Assembly (NCBI GenBank): GCA_013368325.1
Contig: JAACJK010000009.1
Coordinates: 310,001 to 374,000, forward strand
Origin: Ephemerocybe angulata
Taxonomy: Eukaryota > Basidiomycota > Agaricomycetes > Agaricales > Psathyrellaceae
Reading direction: 5' to 3'
DNA length: 64,000 bases
The translations under genes and the position numbers were made by a program. Below are positions 32,307 through 63,398 of the stretch, one piece after another. The notes under the pieces are model-generated. The model did no database searches and was not told the origin of the DNA. It saw only the letters and a program-made list of their open reading frames with translations. Within the stretch, counting starts at the first letter, position 1. Each line of letters opens with the position of its first letter.

Positions 32307-32314
32307 GATGAATA
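32307..32314. repeat. left 8-bp target-site duplication (GATGAATA)
   Basis: Identical to 43204-43211 on the other side of the element. An 8-bp duplication is the length reported for KDZ elements. Confidence 0.95.
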
Positions 32315-32621
32315 CACCTGATCCTTCCGTATCAGACGGCTAACTAGCCGGGTAGTTGGGGCTCACCTACGCGGCTAACTGGCGGGGTTTATGCCTATTT
32401 TCCTATCGTATGGTTATCGGTCCAATATCGAGGCGAAATGTCTTCGTCGTTTCGCGTTTCCGCCCTCCAGACCCTCAGACCCTCCACGGCGGATGCCGAG
32501 ATCGATTCGCACCCTTCCACGCGGCGGAGCGGGCCATGCCCAGGCCATCAACGGGCCTCGGCGTCGTCATCGCGGGTCAAAGCAACCTCGCTTCGCTCGT
32601 CGTCGTCGTCGTCGCCGCCGC
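32315..32621 (+). repeat. left 307-bp terminal inverted repeat of the KDZ element
   Basis: Matches 42897-43203 in inverse orientation; I saw no mismatch by eye. It ends inward in CGT and CGC triplet repeats and is GC- and CpG-rich. Confidence 0.93.
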
Positions 32622-32833
32622 TGTAGGTACAATTCAGAGCTTAATATAATGATTTCTACGTGTTTCTGAGAGGCGATTGAGGAAATGTTGCTCGTTATCA
32701 AATTTATCTAGTTTACGGCACTATCTAAGCTGACACGTGGGGTTATTGGATGGCTGCTGGGAACTTCATCGAGCGGCGCATGCATCAGTCCAAGCAACCA
32801 TCCACAACCATCAATCGACCAACACCCACCACC

Positions 32834-34425
32834 CTACTCCTCCTCGTCCGAAGATGGAACAACCGACGCGCTTCTAGGAGGAAGTTGCTGCGCGACCGAC
32901 TTCTTGGGCGCCTTCTTTGCTCGCTTTCGGGGAGGGGGCCCATCTTGTGCACTATCAGCTGCGTGCGCAACTTCAGGTGCGCCTTCAACAGTCTTCTTTA
33001 CACCCTTATCCTTCCTCGTCTTTCTCTTTTTCTGAGGAGCAGCAGAGGCCTGCTCAGATGCAGCTGCATGCTGGGCATCTGTGAGCTTTACCCAACAGCA
33101 TGCCCCGGACGCGAGGGCATCACGGAGCCTTTGGACCTGGGCGACGGCGTTGATGTTGTGTGGCGACACAAAATCAATCTTATCTGGCCAGCCTCGAAGT
33201 TTGACTTTCAGCTTGACCATGATCTGCGGTACGTAGTTGTCGCCGTACGCCATCATGAGGTTCTTGCGTTTCAAAAGACGATCTGAACACAATCAGAACG
33301 AATCAGGTATGCTTCTCTCCACTATCGAGCATAAACCACTTACTCAAGCCGTCAGATATCATGCTCGTGCACTCCTTCTGCAGAATGCGGAGGGCAGAGC
33401 CTTTGGAGTTCGGGCCTGTTGGGTTGATAGTGGACCCAAGGCGACGTACGGTGAGTGCACTGGTTAAGTCTACGTGAACAGTTCAAGTTGCTTACCTTCA
33501 TGCCTTGCATCGTTCCAGCTCTGGTACTTCCGAATAAATTCGTTCACCGTCATGCCCAGTTGCTCAACGAAGAACATCGAAGAGTCGCCGGCGTCGACGA
33601 ACGTGGGAGGTAGGGTATCGTTGACATGGTTTCGCGCGCCGACGAGAAAGAGGCTGGACCCCGTTCTTTCATGGAGGTTGGTCATCTACGACATTGGTGA
33701 GAAAATGCTTTCCTTCTCTCTATTATCATGCAGAGGGAAAGCATTCTAACGTACCTCTGCATGCAGACGACCAGTGGTAGCCTCGTAGTCAACGGCGGCA
33801 GCCCTGTGGTTCACTCTGGCTCCCTTTTTCTTGAGTTCCTTATGCTTTACCAGTTTCTCTATTAACATTTTCTTCTCGTCCTCGTTCAAGTCGACCATGT
33901 CAGGGTCTTCCTTCATGCGACGTTGAATCTCCATAAGATTTTCTTTATTCCCCTCCTCGGAATCTGGTTCAAACTGGTGAGTTTTTGTAACAGATTGAGC
34001 AGAGACAGCGGCGACTGACCTTCATTAATCTCGTTTGCCAGGAAGTGCAACTTGGCATTGTGGAGGGTAGGAGCGCGCTCATTCTTGTAGACGGTCTGGG
34101 CCGTCGCCACACTGCGGACATAGTGGAGAGTCTTGCCGTGTTTCTTTGCCAGGTCCTGCAGCGCCAGAGCTTGGTTCTCTTTAAACACCTGCAAATCCTC
34201 CAACCAGCTATCCCTTGGCCCCTGCGTCTGTGCCGCCCTGGCTGCCGCCGTTATCTTTTCAGCGTCGGTGAGTTTCTTGTAGTTATTTCGTGGAGGAATA
34301 ACCGGCTTCAGAGGGTTCCGTGCTGCCCAAGTAGAGATGTCGTCGTCTTGAAGGTCGGCGAGCTCGAGAGCAGTAGGTGCAAATCCACTAGGCTCCTGGT
34401 AGGATGTAGTGCTGACGTCCGCCAT
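32834..34425 (-). CDS. KDZ-element cargo protein A, unknown function, 441 aa
   Basis: Five exons on the minus strand (34425-34020, 33963-33755, 33685-33496, 33415-33344, 33282-32834) join in phase into 441 codons plus stop, which strongly supports an intact gene. ATG at 34425 (MADVSTTSYQEP). The middle contains a charged helical segment (EIQRRMKEDPDMVDLNEDEKKMLIEKL) and a block GSSLFLVGARNHVNDTLPPTFVDAG. The C-terminal tail is strongly basic (PQKKRKTRKDKG, PPPRKRAKKAPKK), resembling nuclear localisation signals, then acidic (SSDEEE). No known domain recognised. Its place in the transposon and the basic tail suggest a nuclear accessory protein, perhaps DNA-binding (inference). It is divergent from cargo gene B across about 230 bp. 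Confidence 0.8.
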
Positions 34426-34659
34426 TGATTCAGGAGTTGTGGGGAGGGTGTGGACGTTGGGTGACAGGGTGTTGGATGGAAGAGTGGATATTTTGCGGAG
34501 AGTAGTCTCAGTGAGTTTAGCCTCGTCGTACACCAGAGAATAAAACAGTGAACTGACGCTCCTCAGTTCTAGTGATTCAGTTTCCGCTGTCGGCTGGTGC
34601 CGCGCGCGCCAGCCTCTTCATTTTTCACCCGGAAGTTCCCTCAAACCTGAACCACTCTC
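34426..34659. promoter_or_regulatory. shared intergenic region of divergent cargo genes A and B
   Basis: The 234 bp between the two divergent ATGs must hold both 5' UTRs and promoters. No specific motif assigned. Confidence 0.5.
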
Positions 34660-35193
34660 ATGTCGCACACCAACTCGCACCCCGCCTCAGAAGATCGAAA
34701 GGCCACCGAGCTCAGGCTGTGGCGCTTCAAGCAAGGTCGCTTCGAAAGCTGGGCTCGCTTTGAAAGATGGAACAAGACTCTTGAGGAGTGGGACTTTGGC
34801 GACAGCGACGGTGAGGACGACGCCGAATTCCTTGCCCGCCACGACGCGGATATCCAAGCTCGTGCCCGTCAGGCTCGTCGATTCCCAGCCTACGTCGAAA
34901 TCGATGACCTTCCCCCGCTGAATCAAGCCTGCAAGACTGAGCCTGGAGGAAGTTTGGCCGGCGTCCAGGGTGGAGCTCACCCGCATTCCAATGGTTTCAA
35001 ACCAGCGGCAGCACAAGCGATCTCTGCTGGTACGTTCCTCTGGCTCTCCGCAATGCATCTCAGTATACTAACCCACACGTTCAAAGACTCCAAAGGATCC
35101 AACGGTCCAATCCCCAAGCACGAAGAACAGCATAGGTGTGCGATGAGGCTGTTGGAGGGCATCAGCATGAGTTTGGGGGTCCCTAGCAAATAG
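34660..35193 (+). CDS. KDZ-element cargo protein B, small acidic protein of unknown function
   Basis: ATG at 34660; exon 1 ends at 35029, intron 35030-35086 (GTACGT...CAAAG, 57 bp, so the frame is open with or without splicing), stop at 35193. The spliced product is 158 aa. The N-terminus has an aromatic and basic block (RLWRFKQGRFESWARFERWNK), followed by acidic DFGDSDGEDDAEF and an arginine-rich helix (ADIQARARQARRFP). The end (HRCAMRLLEGISMSLGVP) looks helical. No family recognised. Splicing removes a hydrophobic stretch that would otherwise look like a membrane segment, so unspliced annotation would mislead. Confidence 0.7.
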   Translation: MSHTNSHPASEDRKATELRLWRFKQGRFESWARFERWNKTLEEWDFGDSDGEDDAEFLARHDADIQARARQARRFPAYVEIDDLPPLNQACKTEPGGSLAGVQGGAHPHSNGFKPAAAQAISAGTFLWLSAMHLSILTHTFKDSKGSNGPIPKHEEQHRCAMRLLEGISMSLGVPSK

Positions 35194-35560
35194 CATCATG
35201 TAGTAGTGTGTAGGGATGTACAAATCGACGGTGACATAAAACACCACACCACTCCCTAGCATTGGCTGGCTTGTGTGAGATCGATGTAAGGCTTTGACGA
35301 TGCGCACAAAATATTTAGTGTCCGGACTACACTGAACGTTACACCAATACGACCATAGCAGACTACTTTACGTTCTAGACATGGTTTAGTGGTTATGCTG
35401 CCAAGCTGGTACACGTTGCTCTTCTGTTCAATCCTCGTTGCTTGCCAATTTTTTTGCATGAGGATGTAGGCGTAGCTTCATTAATGACGTCTGAGATCTG
35501 AGTGTCGATCAAAATGTGAAAGGCTGGCTGATCAAATATATTTTTCTGTCCTGAACAACC
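35194..35560. other. spacer inside the KDZ element
   Basis: AT-rich spacer between cargo genes B and C; no gene or repeat recognised. Confidence 0.4.
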
Positions 35561-36683
35561 ATGGCTGCCCGCAAGGGTACCAGAGCCTCTACACACCAGA
35601 GCCTCTCAGAAGTGGCAGAACGCCTTGAGAAACGCCGCGAATCCAGCCGGAAATCTAGTCGCAAGTATTACTACAAGTGAGTACCTTAAGCTAGCGGTGT
35701 TCTGGTACGGTGGTCTGTAGACTGAGCGTCGCTTCTAAAGGCTAAGCTTATATCTCTAACTTCTAGGAATATTACTGCATCCCGAGAGAAAGGCGCAGAG
35801 AGAGCACGAAAGATTCGAGTTCAAAAGGCGGAAAGCCGCCAGCGGGCCTGGCTCAATGTCGAAGAGAGACGGGAGGCACACAGACAGTCAAGCAGGAAGA
35901 ACTACTACAAGTAAGTCATACATGCTTAATAGACACGCCGCACCAAAAAGACTATAACTTCCCCAACTTACAATAACCAGGGACTTGGCTGAATCTCGCC
36001 GAAAGGCTGCAGCCCGTGCTCGCCAATATAGGGCGGCTAAGAAAATGTACGTAACGTGCGCCACCCAGACAGCCAGCGCCTAAATGTTATTTCTAGGCGC
36101 CAGCTCAATCAAGTGGCAATACCCTTGCCGCAGACCCCTCCACCCAGGTCTCGCAAGCAGAAGTCCACACACACAGCTGCAAAGTGCGTATGCTCTAACC
36201 TAGTATCACCTAGTTTGAAACTCATTAGCACAATGTCACAACTATACCGGCAACCCCAGCCGCGTACGAGTCAACACCGGCCACACACAAGCCTCTGTTT
36301 CTCCTCTTCCAACATCGTCCCCGCCACCCTCTACGCCCGAATACCGTTCGCAACTTCGGCGCCTTGAAGAAATGTCTTCGGGTGAAGAAGGAAACTCTGA
36401 AGCAGAGTCAGACTCTCTTCCTTGCGCCCCACCGTCACCGATGTTCTGGGAGCACCATGCGCCGAGGTTGCCCCAGCTACCTCCAGGTCCCACACGCAGA
36501 GACGAGCGCCGGCGCATTCTACAGAGGTATACCGACAACGAGAAGATGTTCCTCCAAGCCGTCTTTGGAGACGCGATGGCTGACGTTGATAGGTATGGGT
36601 ACGGGGGCTACAACGTATTCTGGGACCGGGCATATGAGAAGCATCAGAAGATAGCACGTTCATTGGGGGGTGAATTTATGTAG
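35561..36683 (+). CDS. KDZ-element cargo protein C with repeated basic exon units
   Basis: Five exons (35561-35676, 35767-35910, 35981-36046, 36097-36183, 36260-36683) join in a constant phase 2 into 278 aa. The first three exons each carry a basic, bZIP-basic-region-like unit: RRESSRKSSRKYYYK, RREAHRQSSRKNYYK and RRKAAARARQYRAAKKM. The first two exons end at the same point in the unit. A proline/serine-rich linker follows. The C-terminal domain is acidic then helical (DERRRILQRYTDNEKMFLQAVFGD, GYNVFWDRAYEKHQK). Exon-wise duplication of one basic unit is the likely origin. A DNA- or RNA-binding role is inferred from composition only. The gene is too exon-split to be found by ORF scanning. Confidence 0.75.
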
Positions 36684-37437
36684 AATAAATTTAGTATAAT
36701 ACATACAGTGCTCGTTCAATGTGCTGAACTCTCTGAGTACTGCGAAGGGTACTGCAGTCAGTTGGAACACAAGTTCTGGATCTTCTGGGGTACTTGCCGT
36801 AATCCTGGAGACATGAACTCCTGTATGTGAACGTTGCTGATAAACAGCACGTAGAAAAGGTATAGTAAACATTAATATAAGTTGATTAGAAGTAGGGAGT
36901 ATATCGGAGGTAGGTCAGAGACGTGGTAATGTCAGTGACGGAAATCAGTGACGGCTTTTGAATGTGCTCTCTCACTGCATATACTATAATTAAACATTTT
37001 AAAATATACGCAAACTTGTATGATTACCTGCTGGTGCACGCCTGCAAATTTTCGAAGCAAATAAACATGTTGTGAAGCCATGGTGCACTGTACATTTTGA
37101 GGTCAGGTACGCATCAGTGACACTCAAGGTCAGTGACGCTCTGATCCCGTTGCGTAAATCCCTAATTCCACCACATTAGTAGCATATTGCCAGTACTTAA
37201 GTACAGAGAGAGTATCCTAAGTGCTATATCATTGAAATCCCGTAAGTTAAAGTCATATAAATCTCGCGGTAGTGTCAATGTATTCTAGTGTTCATGGATT
37301 GCTGCGCCGCGCACATCAAGTTCGCGGCATCACGTCCTGACTCCTTGGCCATTATACCACACTACACAATATTTTCAGCCAAGTTGTACAAAAACATATA
37401 CATATGATACTATCAAGGAATACTAATGCTAACTAGC
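36684..37437. other. AT-rich spacer inside the KDZ element
   Basis: About 750 bp between the convergent stops of cargo gene C and the TET/JBP gene; no gene recognised. Confidence 0.45.
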
Positions 37438-39084
37438 CTACTCGAACTCTTCGTCACTTTCTATATCATCCTCGGTGTCCTCGATCTGCTCAAGTATTTC
37501 ATCCAGCGTGGGCCAGAGACTGAGGTCTCGCTCCCATCGAGTCCGCTTGCGCTCCATCATGTACTCGTACTGGTCTAGGTCATACGCCTTCAGCCCCTCC
37601 TCGGTACGGTACCCGTTGTCAGCAAAGCGGAACAGGCCGCCAGAGGAATATTGGGTAAAAGATACTCTAGTCTCCCCTGGCTGAATAGATGTGTTTGAAT
37701 GCGTAAAGACGGCGGATGGGATGAGGGCGCAGGAGCCTGGGGGAAACTCGACGATAATACCAAGCTCCTCTATCACGAGATGGCCTCCCAGCTTTGGGTC
37801 GAAGTCTCCCAGCGCGGTAATCGCGCAATAACCAGCTGGAAGGTTCATCGAGTCGCGGTGGCGTGCACATACAACTTGTGGGCCAAAGTTGAACGCAGCG
37901 GCGGAGAACACGCTGCGCGGGAAGTTCCACTTCAAATCCATGTGGTTTTCGACGTCGGTGCGGAGGGTATGGTACTTGACGTAGAGCTTGGGGAGAAACA
38001 AACCGAAGGCAGCTACGGGCAACCAGAGGAGTCAGTACAGGTACGCATCTGCAGCACGACATCACTCACCACTTTGAAATGTTGCCATTCGCTCGACGTC
38101 CGGGTTGGCAAGGAGGTCCTCAAGCACGGGCTCAGTGCGAAGGTTATACGGCTTCTTGGGGCCCTGCTGATGGAGGATCCCGACGTTCCGCGCCCCGAAG
38201 CCACGACCGCGCCGGTGGTCCTTGTCCAACTTGATCTTGGTGCCCGCCAGGAGGATTGCCTCGCACGCCCGCAAAAGCGACGCCGCATACCTCGGGTCGT
38301 CTGGACGTCCAACGCCGACGAAGACAACTCTACCCGTGGCAGGGTCGGTGATGATAATGGGACTTCTAGAAGCGGGAGGCGCGTGAGCGAAGTACAATGA
38401 CGAGTACATTAAGCGAGTGTACTCACATTCCGTCCCAGGCAATGTACTGCTTCATGGGCAATTCGCTCTTCACTTGTTCGAGCGTTCGCGGTGCCTTCGA
38501 ACCTGACGCGCCCTTGTTGATAGCTTCATACCCACTGGAGGAGGCGGGGAGGGCGTCGAAGTCGACGTCCTTTGCGAGGGCGCTAACCGATTGGCGCGAG
38601 ATGTTGAGTTTGGCGTCCTGGATGCGCGACGGTTGTCCCATTGTGGCAAACGCGTCGGCCTTCTTCTTCTTCTTGTCCGACCGATGGCGAGACTTGTTGC
38701 GGAGAGCGCGATTGCTTTGCGAGGCACCGTTGGCAGGCGTGTCGCCAGCAGGGGTGGTGGCAGAAGGGTTGCCCGTTGTGCGGGGCCGCTTGGCGTCGCT
38801 CCCGGCCCCACTGAGGCCAGCTGTTACTGAACCTCTCTTCGACGCGGAATACGCGTTGCTGGTGATGTCGTCGAGTGCGGCTTCGATGTCGACGATGTCC
38901 TCGCGCTCGTACGCGGCGGTGAGGCACGGCGAAAGGGAGAAGGTGGGGGCGGGGACCGGGGCAGACAAAAACGTCGTGTACGTCTTGCCTGAGCGCGTAG
39001 TGCGAGTCTAGCAGCCTGGTAAGTGCCACGTCACAGTATTTTAGTGAGAAAAACGCGTACCACTGTTGAGGTTTTGAACTGCAT
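37438..39084 (-). CDS. TET/JBP-family 2-oxoglutarate/Fe(II) dioxygenase carried by a transposon
   Basis: TET/JBP enzymes oxidise the methyl group of 5-methylcytosine or thymine in DNA using Fe(II) and 2-oxoglutarate. Four exons (39084-39061, 39007-38427, 38365-38070, 38012-37438) join in phase into 491 aa. Residues 1-200 are low-complexity and basic (RHRSDKKKKK). Then comes IIITDPATGRVVFVGVGRPDDPRYA, typical of the fungal TET/JBP N-terminal part. The catalytic double-stranded beta-helix is complete: the HxD metal ligands in CARHRDSMNLP, the distal histidine in VFTHSNT, and the 2-oxoglutarate-binding arginine in GETRVSFTQY. The C-terminus is acidic (EDTEDDIESDEE). It is divergent from the KDZ transposase and sits within its element, matching the known TET/KDZ association in basidiomycetes. 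The residues look sufficient for activity; substrate is not shown. Confidence 0.93.
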
Positions 39085-39380
39085 GGTGGCGAGTTGGGCC
39101 GGGGACGAGAACGGAGGGGGATGAAGGTCTCGTCACAGTGCACTCCGGTCCGTGAACGCTGCCGGGTGTGGCCTCAAGAGCCGGGGGGGAGTGCAACAGT
39201 GAGAATCTGAGGAAAGGATGGACGTGGTGGTGAAGGGGAAGAAACAACAAAGGGCTGGGTTAGGGGTCCGAGATTTCGAACCAGCGCGCTTCTCGCGACG
39301 CGTTATATGAACGTGAGAATTGATGAGTAGCCGGCAAAAAATTGAACATCCACTTATCTACGCGCTTCACCCTGAGCCTC
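39085..39380. promoter_or_regulatory. bidirectional region between TET/JBP and KDZ transposase genes
   Basis: The 296 bp between the two divergent start codons must contain the control elements of both genes, so they are likely co-expressed. No TATA box or operator can be assigned with confidence. Confidence 0.5.
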
Positions 39381-42300
39381 ATGCCACTGAAGAAAACCAA
39401 GGGCTCATCGTCCCGTCGCATTCGCCTCCATTCATCCCAAGTAAGCTCTACTGGCGTGTATGAGCGCCAAAGCCGGGTGCTATCCTCCCACCGCCAAATC
39501 TTGCAGAATGTGATTGAAACTCGACGAAGCGCTGAAGGTACGTTTCCATTCCTATCTATACATGTAATGATATATTAATTTGCAGGGCCCTGACAGATAC
39601 TCGCCGGAAGAACCTCTACTCCCATCTCGATGTTCCTGAGTCGTCGTCCTCTGGGGACATTGAGATGATGAACGGCGGAGAACCGGACGACAACGACTGG
39701 GAGGACGAGCAAATCACGCCCGCAGGGGTTCTCGATGGTAGTACCCGCCTGGAGTCAAGTCATGCGGGAGGGGAATTCAGAGACCTTGTTGGCGAAAAGA
39801 AGCGGTAAGTACTTTTCCCATCTTTTTTATTCAGCATCCTTAACGAGGAACATCAGGCGTCGCCAAATCGAATACCGAACCTCACGCCGAGAGCAGACAC
39901 ACCGGCGCAATGACGGGTTTGAGAAGCAAATGCAGCAAATGGTGTGGGCGTTCATGAGGTGGGACGAATTGGTTGGAAGCCGAGGGTTTCGAAGTGGTGG
40001 TGTGCCCGAGCATGCCTTCCAAGAGCGAGAGGTGCAAGGTACCTATAAGATTACTGTAGTTGATTGCTTTGGTGAGTTTAGCGCCCGTACTCCCCGTAGC
40101 TGTGAGCGCTTACGAGTTCCAATAGAAATATATACGCACCTTGCGGAACTTCGAGAAGGTGATCAGGGAGTCCCTGCCGCACTCCTATCCCAAGGCCTCG
40201 TTCCTACAGCCCCGTACTCTCCTTCGACTGCTTTCACAGTTCGAAACCTCGAGCTATACCGGTCCCTCCACCTTCGCTCGCCCTCCCTTGCTCTCCAACC
40301 ATATGTCAAAGGCTTGTGCGATCTTCAGGGCCTTCCTTTTCGCCGATCGTACTCAGACGCGTTCAATAATGCGTACGACCTTTACCTGCGACTCCTTGAA
40401 GAAGTCGAGAACGCGGTACTACGGACTTTGGGTCGGGGCGAGAGAATATGGCGCATGAAGAATGCATGCCCCGCATGCACGTATGTGCTAGACGGCGAGG
40501 CCGTACTTCGCTTTCGGATGCTTGTGACGATGGACGGCGGGAACTCGTTGAAGCGGCTTGCAAGGCGGGAAATGGGGAAGGAATCGGGCGACGTTCTTGG
40601 GCCCATGCGAGGTGTGAGGGACGATCGCACAGTCTCTCAGAGGTATTACCTCACGAGAGAAGAGGTAAACAAGTGGGCTAAGCCAACAGCACCACCGGCT
40701 GGCCCCTCTACTGCGTCACCAGAGAATGATGCATTCGATGAGACTGAGGGAGAAGCCAGCAGCCCCTGCGCCAGTCGTTGGCACAATATGAACAGCGAAG
40801 CGACGGCGAAAATGTGGGGGATATTCGACGAGACCGGGATATTCCTGTGTCTCTGTCGGCACGGGTTTGTTCTCAGTGTTTCAGACATGGTGCAAAGTGG
40901 TGAACAGTACGTCCGTGCCCTCGTTCTCCTCCAATTTATTTGCTGACCATGCCTCCAGGTCGAAGTATCCTCTAGCAACAGTGGAAAATCTAATAAATAC
41001 ATTTGGTTCGCGAATCGGCTGCGGCTACGACATCGGCTGCAAATTCTCCTCAACTATCGCCAATAGCGCGTTATCAGCGAAGGCTCGAGGGCACGAATTC
41101 ACCTCGCTGGTCGGCGCTTTCCACGGACATGCCCATAATCGCTTGTGCCAGCTCTCAAATCTGGCAGCATACGTCCCCGGCATGGGCATCGAGGATCTCG
41201 AGGGCTGCGAGCGCATGTTCTCGAAGTCGAACCAACTCGCACCATCCCTCCGCTACGCCAGCCCTTTTCACAGAACGCAAAAGATAGATCAATTCTTTCA
41301 CCATATGGACTCCTATGAAACAATGGCAAATTTGAGTATGTAAATTCTCCCTCTGTGTGCCGACCCATTTTAACATGAAGTTTCTAGGTAAATTCCTTGT
41401 CGACAACTATAAGCAAGCACTCGAGATACTTTCCGAACAGGACGAACTCGCCAGGATGATGAAGGATCAGGGTATAGCAAACATCGACGTGTTTTCAACC
41501 TGGCTGGACGAGGAGCGTAAGTATCTAACCAGTCTTGCAGAGGAACCGCCGAAGGAAACACTGGAAATGGACTACTATCAGAAGCTGGTTGAGTATAAGG
41601 AAAGCGAGTGAGTACTCACCCAATGTATCATACACCGTGCACCAGGCCTAACGGAAGTTAGAGCGAATCTCGCCAAAGCGCGAAGTACATTCCTGCAGCA
41701 CGATCCTTCCGCGCCCCCGCCGCCGTCCACTGGCAAACGAACACAATCTCCAGAGACGAAAATGCGGCACGCGACTGAACTCAACACAAAGATCCTTAGG
41801 GCTGTCATGGACTTGGAGCTCAAGCTCGACGTCAAGAAACGCTGGACAGAGGGTTCAAAAGATTGGGTTGCAGCTGCGGACCTAGTCAGTAAGCGCCGGT
41901 ACCAGCGCTGCCTCGATCAGTTGGAATCCCTCATCGTATCCCGTATGTTTGAGCTCACTAAAATGAATATGTCCAAGACGGGTGAGTTTTGCATCGATTT
42001 TGACGTCGCGTTGAGTGGCTTCTCATGATTTCTAGGATACAAACTTCGAACCCATATCTCGAAATCACTGCAGACCCGTTCCCAAGCTATTCGCAATGCG
42101 CTTGAACGGTACAATGTCGCAGCAGCAGCAATGAAGCCCCCGCAACAGAGTCTTAGTTGGGACCAAGTCGTCGAATATGCCTTTCTGGCAGATTTCGACT
42201 TACTCCGTGTCTCGCGCGAGGACATTCGCGCACGCCCTTGGGCCCAGCCAATCAACCGGGCCATCATGCACAAGTACTTCAAGATACAGCGCGCTCGCGA

Positions 42301-42820
42301 GGAGATACAGCGCCTCGACATCGAGATCCGGCGCGTCGTAACCTACATTCAAGATGAGCAAGCTTTCCTTCGTGACGCCGAGTCAGCACCCCCTTCACTC
42401 CCCAACGACATCTCTGTGCTGACACTCACACCGGATGACCCGAATTCCCGTTCACCCTCTGATCCCCCTCTCACGTATCACATTCGCCGCTACGCAGACC
42501 GGCGGACACTCTTCTTTGAAGGCCACCTCGCACGCTTCAAGAAACTAAAGGACACCGTTCCCCAGCTCGCAACAGCCCTCATGCCGGGAGTTCCAGTGGA
42601 CAAATCCCTACGGCGTACATCGAAAGCCGTAAAGGCTCCAACGGAAACTGGTAATGGGTGCGAACGGCAATTCAATGCCTTTGAGAAAGGGGACGGCTTA
42701 CCTGGCAGTACTGAGAATACAGCGTCGGACAACGAGGAGGAGGAGGAGCAGGTGGAGGAGGAGGAGGAGGAGGAAGAATCACTGCACCGTGTAGAGGAAG
42801 CATTTGCACTTCAAGAATAA
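39381..42820 (+). CDS. KDZ (Kyakuja-Dileera-Zisupton) transposase
   Basis: Nine exons (39381-39440, 39507-39537, 39597-39804, 39857-40071, 40126-40906, 40959-41335, 41388-41607, 41662-41981, 42036-42820) join in phase into 998 aa. The middle has the cysteine-cluster region seen with these transposases: QGLVPTAPYSPSTAF, RNLELYRSLHLRSP and NACPACTY. The catalytic region shows MLVTMDGGNSLKR, DETGIFLCLCRHGFVLSVSDMVQSGE, KYPLATVENL, GCGYDIGCKF and the C-terminal block GAFHGHAHNRLCQLS with GIEDLEGCERMFSKSNQLAPSLRYASPFHR. Conserved acidic residues lie in the MDGG, YDIGC and EGCER motifs. The end is a long acidic Glu-rich tail. It cuts and joins the element's termini in the nucleus; everything points to an intact enzyme. 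Very short exons 1-3 were placed by phase only. Confidence 0.93.
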
Positions 42821-42896
42821 GAGTCAAATTAATGTATATAGCCACTATATAGTATATACCACTAAAAAATACAAGCACAACACCAAAGACGCGACG

Positions 42897-43203
42897 GCGG
42901 CGGCGACGACGACGACGACGAGCGAAGCGAGGTTGCTTTGACCCGCGATGACGACGCCGAGGCCCGTTGATGGCCTGGGCATGGCCCGCTCCGCCGCGTG
43001 GAAGGGTGCGAATCGATCTCGGCATCCGCCGTGGAGGGTCTGAGGGTCTGGAGGGCGGAAACGCGAAACGACGAAGACATTTCGCCTCGATATTGGACCG
43101 ATAACCATACGATAGGAAAATAGGCATAAACCCCGCCAGTTAGCCGCGTAGGTGAGCCCCAACTACCCGGCTAGTTAGCCGTCTGATACGGAAGGATCAG
43201 GTG
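42897..43203 (-). repeat. right 307-bp terminal inverted repeat of the KDZ element
   Basis: Inverse copy of 32315-32621; the outer end reads GGATCAGGTG. Confidence 0.93.
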
Positions 43204-43211
43204 GATGAATA
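43204..43211. repeat. right 8-bp target-site duplication (GATGAATA)
   Basis: Identical to 32307-32314. Confidence 0.95.
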
Positions 43212-52644: not shown

Positions 52645-54488
52645 ATGGAAGATACCGATACGCCAGGTCAGCAACTAAACCGTGAAATTGCTGCTGTCGA
52701 TCTGATCGTGTTCACGCTTTTCAGGGAGAACGGCCGGTCGCGAGGTCTTGAACAATATGGAGTTGACCTCGATGATATTCCAGTTTTTGAGGGATGGGAC
52801 TTTGATAGAAGCGGGCCTAAAGCTGGTAGGCGGAGCAATGCAAACCATGCCAAAGTCTTGGACCAGCATCTTTGCACGCCTCGCTCTAGTCAACAACGCA
52901 TTCTTTCACGCGAGCACGGACGTGCTTTGGGAAAACATGACGACTGTGGAACCGTTCTTTGGACTCCTACTTCAAGCGGACTCGCATAGGGAGGATGGCC
53001 ATATGCATGGGACGGGGATATTGGTGCGATTTTGGGATTTGAATCTCTTCTGTGGTGGATCACTGAACGCGCCAGCAGTCATATTACTGGCTCATAACTC
53101 AGGACGAGTGGGACCGCTTTGAGATCTACTCCAGGAAGGTCAAGAATCTGGCTCTGATTGGGGCGAATTCCCTCAAAATTCGAACACCGTGGCTCCTCTA
53201 TCTTTCAAGAACAAAGCTCCAACCGAAACGCTTATTCCCTACGCTCAAGCGACTGTTCCTCACCTCATCCGACGACATCTCCCTTTTCGTCGCTATGTCT
53301 GTTGCGCCATACATCAAGTCCCTCACCATTCACCTAGGGGAAAATCCTCAAGATCCGACGCAAGATGCGTGTATGGCACTTACTAGCATCCTTTGCGAAT
53401 TGACAAGTGTGCTTTCCGAGCTCCGAATCTTGAACCCGATCACGCCCGTTCTTACGCCTAATGTATTCGAGATTTCTGGCATCACATCGCTATCTCTGAC
53501 GGTCAATAGCAAGCTCGAAGATCTCAAGCTAGCCGAGATCTCTTACCTTACGTTCTTGGAGAAGTTGGAATTGCAACAGACAGTGAAGACAGACAGGATA
53601 CAGTTTCCCACAACGATCGACATACAAGCAGCTATAGCACGGGTGCCATCCAAGCCAGGGTTCGAAAATCAGTCCCTTCGTGAACTCACAGTCACAGGAG
53701 GCGGTTCTCTGCTCTATGAGATTGCCGCGACGATATCGCCTCGTTTCCTCAAAGCGCTACGCCTGGAAGTAATCCCTGACATTTCGTACAAGTCGATGGC
53801 TCTCGTTCCGTTGGCAATCGCTATCTACGCACACCGGAACAAGTCTCTGACGTCTCTGGTAGTCAATTGCCCTACACGAGGGAGGAATAGGGCAGAAGAT
53901 CTCCTCCCTCTTCGAGACGATATGCGGTTCAGGAGGGCTGGCGACCTGCTTGCAGCCCTTTCCACTCTCCACGATCTAAAGACCCTCTGCATTGATAAAC
54001 TGCCATTTCTCGCAGTGGATATCAACGTGGACGTGCTTCGGGTCGTGCAAAACCTTAAGGGGTTGGAAAGCCTTCGCCTAAGGACGAAGCCTATGACCTC
54101 CGCCAGCGACGACGAATTAGTGGTGCCCCCTCTCCAATACCTCGAAGACCTTTCGAGGAACAACCTCAACCTCTCCGAAGTCGAGATGGAGATCGACATG
54201 TCCACCATTCCCGACATCCCTACGGACTACACCTCGACAAACGCGCTTCGTCATCTTTACCTTTACCCCAGCAGCACCTCTCGAGCAATTTCGAATGGGG
54301 AAAGGCTCAGGATGGCGCGATACATCGATCGTTTGTTCCCTCAGGTCAAGAAGCTCAGGTCGGACGCGATGAAGGGCAGCCCTCTGTGGGAGCTTTGGGG
54401 TCATGTCGAGGAGATGGTCTCCCATACCCAGGAGGTTCGGGCGCAAGCCATACGGGATCTTGCTCGGTCGAATAACGCGGACTTGTGA
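52645..54488 (+). CDS. F-box/LRR-like protein, subfamily 2, copy 1
   Basis: Three exons (52645-52666, 52725-53023, 53103-54488) join in phase into 568 aa. The tiny first exon (MEDTDTPG) was placed by phase and by analogy with its paralogs. The N-terminal block VLNNMELTSMIFQFLRDGTL, then SWTSIFARLALVNNAFFHASTDVLWENM, is shared by all subfamily members and resembles a degenerate F-box. LRR-like units follow (LRELTVTGGGSLLYEIA, LTSLVVNCPTRGR, LPFLAVDI). The end has the family tail MARYIDRLFPQVKKLRSD and QEVRAQAIRDLARS. Likely an SCF adaptor-like or orphan LRR protein; function unknown. First member of a local cluster. Confidence 0.8.
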
Positions 54489-55179: not shown

Positions 55180-57084
55180 TTAGTCCCCTTCGACAAGCAT
55201 ACCAGTCCCTGCCGTTCTGGCGATATCACGGGCTGCTTGCGCACGAAGTGCCTGGAAAGTAGAAACCATCGCGAAAATCTCGCCCCATGCTTTCCGCCCC
55301 CACGCATCCGTGATTGGTAGAGTATCAGTCAGTGTCTCGAGGTGCGGAAAGAGTCGATCGAGGTATTGGGCTATCCTCAACCTGTATTCCGTGGAACGCT
55401 CTTCGAGATCTTCGACGGTCATGGTGCAGAGATCCAATTTCTTCAAACGATTAGTCGATATGTAGTCATTTGGGATAGGGGGCACTTCAGCGAGGTCAAT
55501 GGGTAAAACGCAATGGTTGAGGCGTTGGTTCGTTCTGGAGATATTGTCCAGGCTATGCAGAAAGGGGATGACCACTTCGTCTTCCTCAAGTTCCGTCATA
55601 TTTGTAACGTCTAACCAGAGGAGCTCTAGCATGGGCAGGGAATGGACTGCGTCGAGCATAAGGGCCAAGATATCGACGGTGAGGAATGGCACACTCAAGA
55701 TCTTCAGGGTGGTAAGGTTCCGTAATGCTGAGAGTGCCTGGGTAAAGGATAGCGCTTTATCGTATAGTGGGTCGCCGCGCATGGGGTTTATCGTGTCCTG
55801 GTCCCAATGGATCCCGCGCGTCCAATATTCGGCGACTAGAGACTTGAGGTTCAAGTTGCGTTTGGCATGGATCGTAAGAATGTGAGGGATGATCATTGCA
55901 TGCTCCTCTGGATGGTCGGATAGGAACACAAGGTTGATGCTTTCCAAGGATGGAGACGAAATGCTGGCCGCGAGCTGGTAATGAGTGGCTGGATTGGCTC
56001 TCACCGAAAGTTCCTGAAGGCGAGGTGAACCGTCCAGAGGAGCTGAGATAACTCGTGGAAAGTCGAGCAAGGGTGGAAGCGGACTCGGCCGGGAAGCGTC
56101 CAGGGTTTGTGTAAACTGCAGCTTCTCAAGCAGGGGTAGGTTTTTAACCCGCGTAAAATCTACCGCACTTGTTTCTCCATTTGCGTGCAAGGAGAGTGAG
56201 GAAAGAGAGGTAATTTCGAAGATACGGGAGGCCGTGTCGCTGTTGAATGGACTAAGTAGGGCGGCGTGAGTGAGATTCCGGGCCCTCTCTTGTAATAGGG
56301 TGGTGAGGGCGATACCCGACTCCTCTACGGGCTCGTTGGATCCCGCGTCCAGGTCGACGGTAATGGAAGTGATATATGGCGCAAACGAGAACGCAACCAG
56401 AAGGGAGAGGTTGCTATTCGAGCACAGGTAAACCGCTTTGAGGGCAGGGAATAAGAGGTCTGGCTTTGTCTTATCGGTTGCGAGAAACATCACCCAAGAC
56501 GACTCGTCGATTTGAGGTGATGTGAACCGATTGAGGGCGAGAGATTTCGTCCGAGACGAATATAGCGTAAAGCGATGCCATTGTACGGACCTGACCCCAC
56601 GATAGTAGGACTTGGGTTGCTGGATGTGAGCTTGCTTCAAGCACCTGTTACTAGATAGCGCTCACCAGGAGTATCGAAAACATGTCGTTCTGTTTCCTAT
56701 CTGCTGGAAGAAGCGTGCTGAAGAATGGTTCCAACGAGCTCATGTGCTCCCAGAGAACTTCGATGGATGCATGGAAAACTGTGCGATTCACCGTTGTAAG
56801 ACGAGCGAAATATTGTCTCCATGGAGCAGGGCGACAGGTCTTCAAGCCGCCTGGAGGGACTACAGGGGCAACACCGCTTTCCTGCAGGGTAATCCCTTTG
56901 AGAGACTGCATAATGAGGGAGCTGAGTTCCATGTTATTGAATACTTGACTCGGTGCTCCGGGCGCTGCATCTATGGTTCGCATTCAAAGATTAACCTACA
57001 AGGCACGCACGACTCACTTGGGGCAGCTTCTGCTTGAGTTTCCGTTGCTTCAACAATCATGTCGTTATCCAGGGAGACATCCAT
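55180..57084 (-). CDS. F-box/LRR-like protein, subfamily 2, copy 2
   Basis: Three exons (57084-57018, 56970-56666, 56619-55180) join in phase into 603 aa. ATG at 57084 (MDVSLDNDMIVEATE). Shared block VFNNMELSSLIMQSLKG followed by WRQYFARLTTVNRTVFHASIEVLWEHM. LRR-like region with FTLYSSRTKSLAL, ITSLSSLSLHANGE, LPLLEKLQFTQTL and VPFLTVDIL. Tail IAQYLDRLFPHLETL and FQALRAQAARDIART. The second intron is only 46 bp. It lies head-to-head with the truncated copy at 57399. Confidence 0.8.
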
Positions 57085-57680: not shown

Positions 57681-59113
57681 CTACGATCGGGTATGTTCTA
57701 TCAGCCACTTGTCCTGGAGCAGCTGCTTTGGGGTCTGTCTATTCTTTGGGTCCCACTGAAGCATCTTGGTCAGGAGTTCGACAAACATCCTCTTGTCCAG
57801 ACCCTCCAAACTCGTCTCTATATCCGTCAAGGAGATAGAAGGGGGAATTGGAATGCCGGCCTGAAATTCCCCTGTGAATTGAGTAAAGTCAGCGTCAAGA
57901 CGCAGGCTACGTTGAAACAAACTGACCATTCTCAGAGAAGAATTTCGAACTTAAAACACCACGGGCAACAAGATCTGGGGGTGGCGGCCCAAGGAGGGCG
58001 ATCATTTCAGCTAGATGAGCTCGGCTGCGATAGACACGGTGCTCTGGATCTGTCCCATAGAAAAGGTGCCGGGCTTCAAACATATTAAAAATCTTTCACA
58101 ATTCCAAGTCAGTTACATATAAGCTCGGAAAGGCTCCTGCAAATCGAGACACTCACAGCACAGCCGATGTTCCAAACATCTATCTCGTAACTCCAAGGCA
58201 CCTTGAGGATGACCTCCGGTGACCGATACACATCGGGCTGGACATCCTCTTTGTGTTCTTCCTCTCCCCAGACGGAGGAACCGAAGTCACAAAGCACAGG
58301 TGGAGAGAACCTGCTAGGCGCCTGAAGCTCTCGAGATTGATAGATGATGCGACCTTCCGTCTCCTTGCGTGGGGTTGGATGTTCTAGCTCGTCCTGTTCG
58401 AACTTTTCCAAGACGGATGGGTCGTCGATTCCAAACATTATATTGCTAGGCGAGATGTCTATAAATGTAATACGATTGGTTAAATCTCTTGCTCGCACAA
58501 AAAAAAACAGGAAACGAGCAAACTCGCCTGTGTGAATGACCTGGCATTCGCGGCAATAGTCAAGAGCCAGAAAGACCTGTCGGAGAACGATCGCGAGCAC
58601 GGGAATGGGCAGTCTGCCAACAGGGTTACGCGCCAAAAAGGTCGAGACGCTGTCCCATAACGGAGGGTGCACAAGACACTGGTGTTCGCCCTCGGGTCCA
58701 GCCACGGTGAATGAGTCCAGCAGCGTGCGAACAGCACCGCGACCTGGATGCGAGACAGGACCCTTCTCCAACCGTTGGTAGGCATGCAGCTCTTGAAAGG
58801 CACTCTCCCCCAGGCTGGACGAACGAAGATAAATCTTCACAGCAACGTGGCGCCGCCCCGGGAGGTCGCGAGCAAGCCACACGGTTGAGGTTGCCCCGAA
58901 GCCAAGTTTACCGACAACTTGGTATCGCGAGGCCAATAGGTCACCAATGCGCATTGGGTAGTACCCCACTGTAGAAAATTCGGGCATGTTCTCTTCCTCG
59001 AGAAGCTGATTTGCGCCGATCCGCTGGAAGTGCGGATTGGCGAAGGTTTTGAGGGCCCAAGGTTGGCGCCCGCTCAAGGCTTTTGATGCCCATCGGCCAA
59101 TAGATGAAAGCAT
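57681..59113 (-). CDS. SRPK-like serine/threonine protein kinase, copy 1
   Basis: ATG at 59113 (MLSSIGRWASKALSGRQPW), stop TAG at 57681-57683. Exons 59113-58528, 58458-58157, 58092 to about 57927, then the final exon. Glycine loop VGKLGFGATSTVW, ATP lysine in HVAVKIYLRS, catalytic loop VIHTDISPSNIMF (HTD as in fungal SRPK-like kinases), DFG in LCDFGSSVWGEE, and YRSPEVILKVPWSYEIDVWNIGC. The C-lobe ends WDPKNRQTPKQLLQDKWL. All catalytic residues are present. The first intron uses a GC donor (AG|GCGAGT) and splits the catalytic loop. SRPKs phosphorylate SR-type splicing factors; this expanded fungal group has unknown substrates. The copy at 61962 is nearly identical and inverted. Confidence 0.88.
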
Positions 59114-59133
59114 GGTTATGAGAGAAAAGAGTC

Positions 59134-59643
59134 GTGGGGACTATTGACGGGGTACGGAGGAGGCAATGCAGGTGCGCAAGAATATATGTTTATGAGCAGC
59201 CTGTCACGCCGGGTCAGTTAAGAATCGTGTTTGTGGGTGTTTATGCCTCCAGCATCCCGGAAATGGCGGATAAGCGCCCGTTTCAATTAATCCCAAGTCT
59301 AAGATTTGGGCTTATATCATGTACGTGGTTAGTTCCACTCTGTCGATATTTTCAGCGCACCGAGGGTCAGGGCACGAGATTCTCTCGCCTCCGTCTTATT
59401 AATCCTACCGAGGTCCGAGAGGTTCGCGAGCAGTCGGACCCTTCGACTGTCGACATCACTTCGCTTACTTCACTGGACCTGGCCCTGCAAGATACTAGGG
59501 CCATATGTAAGGCTCAAGGGGTGAGATTGCACGAACTTCAGCATTTTGGAACGTTTAAGGGCTCAAGCAAACCTTGGAAGACAATGGACTCAGCGAGGTG
59601 CCGTCGGCCGACGGCGGCGGAGGGCCTGGCGTTCAACGTGTAG
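59134..59643 (+). pseudogene. decayed F-box/LRR-like remnant
   Basis: An open frame covers 59134-59643, but only about 59370-59520 resembles the family: TRFSRLRLINPTEVREV followed by VDITSLTSLDLALQD parallels NLTHAALLSPFNSDTAS/FEITSLSSLSLHANGE of copy 2. No start block or tail is present. Probably a relic. Confidence 0.45.
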
Positions 59644-59929: not shown

Positions 59930-61747
59930 ATGTCGGACGCGTCGCTGGTTTCTATCTCAGGCGTGTATATTGCATCTCAAAGCGCTTGTCGAGAGAAAAA
60001 AAAACTGACTTTGCTTCATGACTAGGGCCTTCGTCCGCACTCCAAGTCCTAAACAATATGGAACTCACAACCATAATGTTCCAATACCTAAAAGAAATGA
60101 CGCTAGTGCGGCCTCCATCTTGGAGGCAGCAATTCGCTCGATTGACTTTGGTGAACCACGCGTTCTTCCATGCGAGCATTGGCATACTTTGGGAGAATAT
60201 GGACTCCGTGAAGCCGTTCTTTGAGATTCTGCTTCGAGAGGGCACTAGTGCTGTCGGAAATACCGAGTCGGTAACGCCCTTGGTTCGTGGCTCGGCACTA
60301 AGTCTCCGGTCTTCCAAATACTATACTTACCATTAGGCGACAGACATACGACGTCGAGAAATGGGATAGATTCAAGGTGTACTCATCTCGGACAAAAAGT
60401 CTTTCACTCCGCCGTTCAACATCGCTCGCGCTCGACTACCATTGGGCGCTTTTCCTTTCGACCGACAGAAAATGGCCAGATCCACTCTTCCCGAGCCTCA
60501 AGCGGCTGTATCTCTCTTCCGACGACCCGCTTTCCCTGCTCGTAGCATATACTACTGCGCATCAACTCGAAGTTATCACTGTCGAATTTGACGAACATTG
60601 CAAGACGGTCTTGGAATCCGCTTCAGCACCTGCCATGCTCCTGAGCGATCGGGCAAGAAACCTCAAGTCCCTTGCACTCAAAAATCCGGCCAATACGCGT
60701 ACTATCTCCCGCGTCTGCCAAGTGGACACCCTCAGATCACTCTATTTGTCTATCACTGAGGGTAGTCGAGAGATGATCTCGAAGATCAATGACCTCACGC
60801 GCCTCGAAACGCTCGAAATCGTCCAAACCCTCGTCCCATCGCAGCCCAGCCCATTCCCTTCCTTGGTCGATATGCCCAAACATATCTCAAGGCCGACGAA
60901 ACTTGCGAACCTTCGGACGATGACTGTCGAGGCCAACGCGTCGATGCAATATCTGGTAGCCTCCACCCTTTCGCCCCGTTCGCTGAAAAATTTGGATCTA
61001 GACATCCTGACCGATAGTTCTGACAAGCAAATGCTTGTCGTCCCCCACGTCCTCACTATTTACGCCAAACGCAATCTTGCCCTCCGCACTTTGTCTGTCT
61101 TTTGCCCGGCACGAGGCAACGTCGATTCCGACGCAATTGCCCATCTACGAGGAGACCTCGCGTTCAACCAAATTGAACCTCTTATGTCAAGCCTTGCCGC
61201 GCTACGCCAGATTTCCGATTTGGCCATCCGCGGCGTCCCTTTCTTGGCAGTCGACATCTTGTTCCGTTTCCTTACCGCCATTCGGTCGCTACCGAACCTA
61301 CGAAACCTCAGCCTAGACCCCAAGCCCATGACGAACCTAGAAGCGGATGAACTTATGGTTCCCACCATCCAATGCTTGGAAGACGTCTCGAGGCACAATC
61401 AACGTCTGGTGCACTGTTTACTCCCTTTCGACGTCTCACAACCCGTCCCCGAGATTCCGAAGGATTACGTCTCGACAAACCGCCTTGCGCGGCTTGACCC
61501 CTTCTTCCCTGTTTATACAGCGGACCTTGCGACGTTCACCACGGAGAGAAAGCTGGCGATCGCGCGCTACCTCGACCGACTTTTTCCTCATATGAAGGAT
61601 ATCTCGGGTTGTATGACGAAGGAGGGGCCGCGGTGGAAACTATGGAGTGAGGTCGAGAAGATTATGTTCTCCTTCCAGGAACTCCGGGCTGAGGCAATCC
61701 GGGACCTCGCCGCCTTACCAAATGCAATGGCTGTGGATGCTGTTTGA
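59930..61747 (+). CDS. F-box/LRR-like protein, subfamily 2, copy 3
   Basis: Model 59930-59960, 60026-60270, 60344-61747, 559 aa. The first intron only fits in phase with a GC donor (CAG|GCGTGT), so the first exon is tentative. Block VLNNMELTTIMFQYLKEMTL, then WRQQFARLTLVNHAFFHASIGILWENMDS. LRR-like region: VYSSRTKSLSLRRSTS, VDTLRSLYLSITEG and VPFLAVDILF. Tail IARYLDRLFPHMKDIS and FQELRAEAIRDLAAL. Closest in arrangement to copy 2. The SRPK-like kinase copy 2 follows about 215 bp downstream in the same direction. Confidence 0.78.
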
Positions 61748-61961
61748 AATTCGTTATTCGGCACTAATGTTGGAGATATCGTCTAGTCTCCTCAATAAAC
61801 TGCATGCAAGCTTTTAGTCCCATGAAACAATTCCCTCCTCAAGGCCAGTCGATATGATCCGCTCGAGATGATCCGGTATGGAGGGATCACCCACGCCTGC
61901 CACATCTCTCCTTCCTCCTTTCCCCGTCAATAATCCCTCGCGACTCTTTACTCTCATAACC

Positions 61962-63398
61962 ATGCTTTCATCTATTGGCCGGTGGGCATCAAAAGCCTTG
62001 AGCGGGCGCCAACCTTGGGCCCTCAAAACCTTCGCCAATCCGCACTTCCGGCGGATTGGCGCAAATCAGCTTCTCGAGGAAGAGAACATGCCCGAATTTT
62101 CTACAGTGGGGTACTACCCGGTGCGCATCGGTGAACTGTTGGCCTCGCGCTACCAGGTGGTCGGTAAGCTTGGCTTCGGGGCAATGTCAACCGTGTGGCT
62201 TGCTCGCGACCTGCCGGGGCGCCGCCACGTCGCTGTGAAGATTTATGTTCGTTCCTCCAGCCTGGGGGAGAGTGCCTTTCAAGAGCTGCATGCCTACCAA
62301 CGGTTGGAGAAGGGTCCTGTGTCGCATCCAGGTCGCGGTGCTGTTCGCACGCTGCTGGACTCGTTCACCGTGTCTGGACCTGAGGGCGAACACCAGTGTC
62401 TTGTGCACCCTCCGTTATGGGACAGCGTCTGGACTTTCTTGGCGCGTAACCCTGCTGGCAGACTCCCAATTCCCGTGCTCGCGATCGCTCTCAGGCAGGT
62501 CTTTCTGGCTCTTGACTATTGCCGCGAATGCCAGATCATCCACACAGGCGAGTTTGCTCGTTTCCTGCTTTCTCGTTGAATTTATGTGAGCAAGAGATTG
62601 ACCGGCCGTATTACAGACATCTCACCCGGCAATATAATGTTTGGGATCGATGACCCGTCCGTCTTGGAGAAGTTCGAACAGGACGAGCTAGAACATCCGA
62701 CCCCACGCAAGGAGACGGGAGGTCGCATCATCTATCAATCTCGAGAGCTTCAGATGCCTAGCAGGCTATCTGCACCTGTGCTTTGTGACTTCGGTTCCTC
62801 AGTCTGGGGAGAGGAGGAACACAGAGAGGATGTCCAGCCCGACGTGTATCGGTCGCCGGAGGTCATCCTCGAGGTACCTTGGAGCTACGAGATAGATGTC
62901 TGGAATATCGGCTGTGCTGTGAGTATCTCAATTCTCGGGACTTGGAGCCCTCGAGTTTATATGTAACTAACTTGGAGTTGTGAAAGATTTGGGATATGTT
63001 TGAAGGCGGGCATCTTTTCGACGGGACAGATCCCGAACACGGTGTCTACCGCAGCCGCGCTCATCTAGCTGAAATGATTGCCCTCCTTGGGCCGCCACCT
63101 CCAGAATTTGTTGCCCGTGGTGCTTGGAGTTCGAAATTCTTCTCTGAGAACGGCCAGTTTGTTTCAACGTAGCCCGTGCCTTGACGCTGACTTTACTCGA
63201 TTCACAGGGGAATTTCAGGCAGGTATTCCAATTCCCCGTTCTATCCCCTTGACGGATAGGGAGACGAATTTGGAGGGTTCAGACAAGAGGATGTTTGTGG
63301 AATTCCTGGACAAGATGCTTCAGTGGGATCCCAAGAATAGACAGACCCCAAAACAGCTGCTCCAGGACGAGTGGCTGAGGAAACATACCCAATCGTAG
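61962..63398 (+). CDS. SRPK-like serine/threonine protein kinase, copy 2
   Basis: Inverted near-identical copy of the kinase at 57681-59113, starting at the ATG 61962 with the same MLSSIGRWASKALSGRQPW and ending at the TAG 63396-63398. VGKLGFGAMSTVW, HVAVKIYVRS, IIHTDISPGNIMF, LCDFGSSVWGEE and YRSPEVILEVPW are intact. The first intron again has a GC donor. The donor of the last intron, GT in copy 1, is GC here (63153-63154, G|GCCAGT). If not spliced, the frame stops at the TAG near 63171, losing the last roughly 70 residues of the C-lobe. The coding substitutions between copies are few and mostly conservative. Confidence 0.85.

Follow-up and report, generated by a model that had tools for sequence, protein, structure and literature searches.

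Results

Structure of the element

The 64,000-nucleotide stretch of Ephemerocybe angulata DNA analysed here (the window) contains, at positions 32307–43211, a 10,889-bp transposon together with one 8-bp duplication per side. The element carries five genes, A to E, whose models were drawn by eye from the sequence with GT..AG introns of 50–90 bp:

32307..32314, no strand, left 8-bp target-site duplication, GATGAATA
32315..43203, no strand, transposon, 10,889 bp, ends CACCTGATCC..GGATCAGGTG
32315..32621, + strand, left terminal inverted repeat (TIR), 307 bp, carrying CGGCTAAC twice, at repeat positions 23 and 58
32834..34425, − strand, gene A, 441 aa, 5 exons
34660..35193, + strand, gene B, 158 aa with one intron or 177 aa with the intron kept, both open
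35561..36683, + strand, gene C, 278 aa, 5 exons, N-terminal half basic
37438..39084, − strand, gene D, TET/JBP-fold dioxygenase, 491 aa, 4 exons; H352-x-D354, H405, R416; N357, C363
39381..42820, + strand, gene E, KDZ transposase, 1020 aa, 8 exons; conserved D330, D478, E535/E538
42897..43203, − strand, right terminal inverted repeat, 307 bp, same sequence as the left repeat
43204..43211, no strand, right 8-bp target-site duplication, GATGAATA

An earlier reading made from the sequence only had described five genes with intact spliced frames, 307-bp TIRs without visible mismatch and an exact 8-bp target duplication, and all of these held. The by-eye models spliced into frames without internal stops, the two repeats matched at 307 of 307 positions, with a first mismatch at position 308 and a BLAST alignment reaching 310 with one mismatch, and GATGAATA was found on both sides. 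The inverted repeats (307/307) and target duplication (GATGAATA twice) that mark a KDZ DNA transposon were thus both present. When the terminal 20-mer was searched for within the window, allowing up to three mismatches, only the two element ends were recovered (mean in shuffled sequences, 0.01). The left flank occurred once in the assembly at the insertion point, with one partial match of 127 bases elsewhere. Rejoining the empty site in silico produced no open frame of at least 80 aa across it, and no interrupted exon was found when introns were left out of consideration. Two CGGCTA copies, at about positions 23 and 58 of the repeat, were kept in seven (first copy) and eight (second copy) of eight aligned ends, and we propose the CGGCTAAC copies in the TIR as candidate transposase sites.

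Gene E matched PF18758 with 260.4 bits (cut-off 26.6) over positions 1–217 of the 217 in the profile, which bears out the earlier identification of a KDZ transposon. Its acidic residues were conserved (D330 in 121/121, D478 in 119/121, E535 in 120/121 and E538 in 118/121); they would make up a DDE set, in which E535 or E538 may be the catalytic glutamate. Neither gene B nor gene C matched Pfam. Gene A had seven homologs, all in Agaricales fungi (E. angulata, Tricholoma and Termitomyces), and the predicted fold of one of them, P0221, was too poor for a fold search (mean pLDDT 60.5, pTM 0.29).

Copies of the element in the genome

We searched the E. angulata assembly (58.67 Mb, 232 contigs) with the left end of the element and obtained 23 matches. 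Both ends were examined at eight loci, with C143, C47:372085, C115, C31 and C32 outside this set, and we found that all eight had exact 8-bp duplications, each different from the others. The end match on C117 had no inverted partner. The eight copies, and C37 in addition, were as follows:

Window element, duplication GATGAATA, end differences 0/307
C120, duplication TACTAGAC, 46,685 bp, enlarged by later inserts, end differences 0/307
C133, duplication AGTTGAAC, middle of KDZ missing, end differences 11/320
C47, duplication ACCAGGAG, end differences 9/310
C86, duplication CCATCAGG, end differences 13/300
C37, more distant, duplication AATTGGAC, CACCTG terminus as in the window, TIRs of about 690 bp, end differences 5/681 plus 10 gap columns
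C207, short derivative, duplication TCGATGCT, 2,488 bp
C151, short derivative, duplication AGCCTGGA, 2,369 bp
C125, short derivative, duplication TGTTTCGA, 234 bp

The arrangement of A, C, TET and KDZ was repeated in C120, C133, C47 and C86, among which gene B was found in C120 and C86 only; C37 carried A, TET and KDZ. Of the full-length elements found with the window's repeat, all five carried a TET-fold gene, as did the divergent C37. The sequence-only reading had named a further complete copy flanked by another 8-bp duplication as a sign of mobility; such copies were provided by C120, C133, C47, C86 and C37, and these insertions support a mobile element family. The window element had also been called young, in agreement with its 307/307 ends and with the 20 mismatches in 8,179 aligned bases that separated it from C120 outside one block. 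We consider it a structurally complete cut-and-paste KDZ transposon of the kind with long TIRs and 8-bp duplications, inserted recently and probably able to mobilise itself.

At 46.7 kb, C120 was considered as a giant transposon with new cargo, and this was rejected because its extra length came from later insertions. These included four pairs of long, LTR-like direct repeats (99.93–100% identity) that enclose retrotransposon-like ORFs, one pair being broken into two pieces by a 254-base difference; further inserts were a hAT-like one with an 8-bp duplication and one of 194 bp with a tRNA-like stretch. Gypsy, Copia and hAT elements may be among them. At C125:2081001 inverted repeats accompanied a TET and a partial KDZ, with no matching duplication at the ends tried. 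A search for inverted repeats around the TETs of C36, C150 and C128 was fruitless, and no KDZ was found in the stretches examined there.

The TET/JBP-fold gene

Gene D scored 15.2 bits against Pfam Tet_JBP, under the curated cut-off of 34.9. Its fold was therefore checked, and it was found to be that of TET. Among the homologs of gene D, 24 of 42 matched Tet_JBP at E ≤1 (best 4.8e-06), and the HxD...H iron triad and arginine were kept in nearly all homologs (H352 in 97/99, D354 in 98/99, H405 in 96/99 and R416 in 94/99). The earlier claim that the element carries a TET/JBP gene was supported for a gene of this fold. That reading had overlooked the divergent type of this TET, as well as the mosaic TET region between copies described below.

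The TET types described include the AG-type of Kyakuja, with Gly/Ser and Asp, and the PE-type, with HxE (PMC12730594), and gene D is unlike both. The position of D354 was Asp in 98 of 99 homologs and Asn in one, so that the HxE of PE-type was absent. CcTet of Coprinopsis cinerea carries Gly331 and Asp337 (PMC11040006). At these positions, assigned via the ungapped offset from the iron histidine, the gene D family instead had Asn (N357, 96/99 homologs) and Cys (C363, 99/99 homologs), and thus neither the Gly/Ser at 331 nor the Asp at 337 of AG-type. Canonical TETs read from the E. angulata genome had Gly and Asp there in four of four cases. Gene D gave no sequence match at E ≤1 to the CcTet structures (7vpn, 7w5p and 8jkk) with either phmmer or a profile, while a canonical TET of the E. 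angulata genome matched CcTet at about 5e-33. Sequence searches of solved structures with gene D, its profile and the homolog P0014 yielded no useful match.

A second association of TET and KDZ

PF12851 matched above its cut-off at 25 places in the E. angulata genome. At least 18 of these 25 canonical TETs had a KDZ match no more than 5 kb away, at 3.9–4.6 kb in 17 cases, and among the matches listed seven had no KDZ within that distance. Six KDZs taken from beside canonical TETs were placed in a tree built on the C-terminal half of the KDZ domain. All six grouped apart from the window lineage, and a profile of the window's relatives scored these KDZs at 22–34 bits versus about 350–370 for the window family. 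We call them Kyakuja-like by their linkage to CcTet-like genes only. The left flanks of two near-identical Kyakuja-like elements, C22 and C117, matched too, so that no duplication length could be derived from them.

The transposase of the window element did not group with the CcTet-adjacent KDZs. The first two TET-bearing Kyakuja families, Kyakuja-1_LB and -2_LB from Laccaria, lack TIRs and make 7-bp duplications (PMC12730594), unlike the window element with its 8-bp duplications and 307-bp TIRs. Zisupton makes 8-bp duplications (PMC12730594), as were found at all eight loci with both ends examined and at C37. The Dileera element Zisupton-1_PGr also makes 8 bp according to the same source, and duplication length therefore does not decide for Zisupton.

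Apparent exchange of the TET region

Comparison of the window element with C120 revealed one block that departed from the rest:

35788..38089, no strand, mosaic block, about 72–95% identical to the C120 copy against 99.8% for the rest; covers most of gene C and the TET catalytic half

In the first part of the block identity was about 72–73%, with 490 of 1,772 aligned bases mismatched, and in the remainder it rose to about 94.5%. Outside the block dS was 0.003 for gene A, 0.019 for gene B, 0.005 for KDZ and 0.005 for TET; inside it, dS was 0.27–0.34 for TET and 0.69 for gene C. Two separate events were considered for the step from 73% to 94.5% and rejected, since TET dS was similar on both sides (0.344 and 0.268) and constraint explains the step. 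In the TET catalytic zone within the block we obtained dN 0.009 and omega 0.033 over 151 codons, and in gene C omega 0.21 over 225 codons; the C120 pieces compared were free of stop codons. Codon by codon, gene A of the two copies differed by one synonymous change in 441 codons; it reads 92.4% by tblastn because that alignment ran through introns. Judged by these substitution rates, the catalytic zone of gene D is under strong purifying selection, and at the DNA level, in this pair of copies, the comparison shows a TET region exchanged between elements. The simplest account would be that gene conversion or recombination swapped this stretch with that of a divergent relative, and that each version remained functional.

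We also compared the window with DFP72DRAFT proteins, which carry the same species name and appear to come from a different E. angulata assembly. Between the window TET and the TET P0001 of that assembly, 10 of 491 residues differed, none of them beyond residue 203. A 103,669-bp contig, with proteins tagged DFP72DRAFT_861221, _861224 and _994703, encodes this TET together with gene A (P0221) and a KDZ (P0103), and over fixed ranges identity to the window was 95.1% (residues 1–205) and 100.0% (300–475) for TET, 77.0% for KDZ and 60.8% for gene A; by BLASTP over the whole match, KDZ was 69.5% and gene A 55.6% identical. TET and KDZ identities lay within 4 points of each other in 20 of the 28 pairs having both, and for C47 versus a 152,430-bp contig they were 93.2 and 95.5. 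Two of the 28 pairs, the window and C120 versus the 103,669-bp contig, departed by 23 and 19 points. Another six departed by 14–16 points; these are six of the seven pairs with a 1.6-Mb contig, and we discounted them because a contig of that size does not show a shared element. The comparison leaves out C133, in which the KDZ middle is missing, and the TET-less contigs of 275,024 and 556,349 bp.

The protein identities, with linkage taken from the shared contig and close locus tags, support an exchange of the TET region between elements of two strains. The mismatch would also arise if the 103,669-bp contig held two elements, a window-like one with the TET and a divergent one with gene A and KDZ. 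The cross-strain comparison is one of proteins alone, and the KDZ cluster P0100 has three member sequences, among which a window-like KDZ could be hidden; the window assembly's own gene A is likewise missing from the protein list, so that absence there means little. Against two elements, however, the tags of gene A (861221) and TET (861224) are three numbers apart, which would fit the order A-B-C-TET of a single element, and we regard two elements as possible but rather doubtful.

CpG transitions and the role of the TET

We found an excess of CpG-type changes among the transitions between the window and C120 (9 of 15, against an expected fraction of 0.276, p 0.0085), and when the end differences of C133, C47, C86 and C37 were pooled with these, CpG-type transitions numbered 20 of 35 (p 0.0002). 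The excess is modest, and suggests that element copies are or were CpG-methylated. The CpG observed/expected ratio was 1.02 in the element and 0.96 and 0.94 in the flanks; RIP-like decay was rejected on the element's ratio, and the undepleted CpG is consistent with a brief residence, little methylation or protection.

Relief of a transposon from silencing by its own TET has been proposed by Kojima (PMC12730594), and the sequence-only reading suggested it for this element. Gene D would likewise oxidise 5-methylcytosine on element DNA, and its most likely role, in which we have about even confidence, is to counter silencing by CpG methylation. The opposite role has also to be weighed, in which oxidised 5mC is a repressive or restraining mark with which the TET limits expression of its own element or rival transposons. 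Transposons heavily modified with 5hmC/5fC accompany gene silencing in Laccaria bicolor and Coprinopsis cinerea, and the few TET genes expressed there are expressed weakly (PMC8889193), as a repressive mark would have it. The TETs of these two mushrooms are, however, mostly CcTet-like and gene D is of a different type, and a mobile element that keeps an enzyme under strong selection suggests that the enzyme helps it, although self-restraint could be selected as well. We consider the repressive role unlikely. The low CpG methylation of active transposons in Marasmius oreades (PMC9674265) is compatible with both relief and a repressive mark.

Discussion

KDZ elements and TET/JBP genes were reportedly found by Iyer et al. 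in 2014 to be associated, and expanded, in basidiomycetes. TET-bearing KDZ transposons (Kyakuja, Zisupton and Dileera) were described by Kojima in 2025, after Iyer et al. 2014, with TET-bearing Zisupton reported from Auriculariales and Agaricus (PMC12730594). The window element resembles them in joining a transposase and a TET/JBP gene in one Agaricomycetes element. By its residues, the TET of this lineage is outside the hallmarks of the Kyakuja AG-type and of the PE-type. Cryptococcus belongs to another basidiomycete subphylum. KDZ1 of Cryptococcus neoformans, of about 11 kb with 241-bp TIRs and 8-bp duplications, has been shown to jump into a reporter gene (PMC12810828); it is like the window element in size, long TIRs, 8-bp duplications and KDZ transposase, and the accessible text of that report names no TET gene for it. 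KDZ elements built in this way do move. In the accessible text of the literature on Ephemerocybe angulata or Coprinellus angulatus (including PMC7368018) we found nothing on transposons, and a literature search on TET/KDZ exchange or mosaics gave no title or abstract opening that described it. TET-bearing KDZ elements are thus known, and we did not find a TET-centred mosaic in the titles and abstract openings seen.

Collectively, we hold with high confidence that the locus is a recent, complete KDZ transposon with a TET under selection, whose TET region has been exchanged between elements. The KDZ transposase would bind the long repeats, possibly through their CGGCTAAC copies, excise the element at its long ends and insert it with 8-bp staggered joins. 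The TET would oxidise 5mC on element DNA, most likely against CpG-methylation silencing, and its region would be swapped with a divergent relative through gene conversion or recombination. An assembly artefact, with the block of a third element misjoined in the window or in C120, could be suspected from a mosaic seen in one DNA pair and a repeat-rich C120, but is very unlikely, as matching duplications flank both copies, the window TET catalytic half (residues 206–491) is identical in an independent assembly, and neither block, the other copy aside, has a long match above 73% in the genome (67–73% plus one 40-base match at 90% for the window block; the window as sole match for the C120 block), so that the third element would have had to vanish.

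We tentatively suggest, at somewhat less than even confidence, that the TET is an exchangeable cassette, with catalytic halves and whole genes shuffled between divergent backbones within a species while catalysis is selected, and that it is a TET type outside AG and PE in which the 5mC-recognition position holds a TET2-like Asn. Such shuffling would be expected if the TET, and not the transposase, fronts an arms race with host methylation. Whether transposon-borne TET enzymes aid the transposon is a question that this genome lets one probe, with a natural test set: a pair of near-identical elements whose main difference is the TET region, several relatives that are complete, short derivatives that lack TET and, in the same genome, a separate TET lineage beside another KDZ group. 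Swapping of the TET between backbones under selection would make it a trait that counts by itself, rather than a passenger.

Later insertions and short derivatives of the family

The copy of the KDZ element on contig C120 of the same E. angulata assembly (G000) was found to carry later inserts in series within one transposon copy (C120:1013955-1060639; L009-L013). LTR-like repeat pairs among these inserts were 99.93-100% identical, and the insertion cluster is very young. The TET exon of this copy was interrupted by an insert of 194 bp; part of it resembles a tRNA, which ARAGORN labelled tRNA-Pyl(cta), surely a misnomer. Three short derivatives had the ends of the window's family, each with its own 8-bp duplication, and were likely mobilised in trans by the family's transposase.

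Short derivatives
C207:493238-495725, 2,488 bp
C151:317592-319960, 2,369 bp
C125:478908-479141, 234 bp

Other open frames in the window

Five long frames that partly resemble one another gave no Pfam match at E 0.01; they may be F-box-like. The start of the kinase-like frame was repeated almost unaltered, in opposite orientation, in a frame at 61872-62576 (+).

Open frames
2-838, +, HMG-box (PF00505, 50.9 bits), truncated by the window start
2617-4110, +, long frame
5318-6730, +, long frame
53067-54485, +, long frame
55183-56661, -, long frame
58112-59140, -, protein-kinase-like (44.4 bits)
60302-61744, +, long frame

Other TET genes in the assembly

Three further TET genes of the window's type, with ~72-73% identity in the catalytic part, were located at C128:279745-281371, C36:18763-20306 and C150:76282-78063. 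No KDZ was found near them within the surrounding stretches examined, and they may be orphan, degraded or inside a different kind of transposon. A second, CcTet-like set comprised 25 loci. Among the KDZ matches listed, at least 18 of these loci had one from a different KDZ group no more than 5 kb away.
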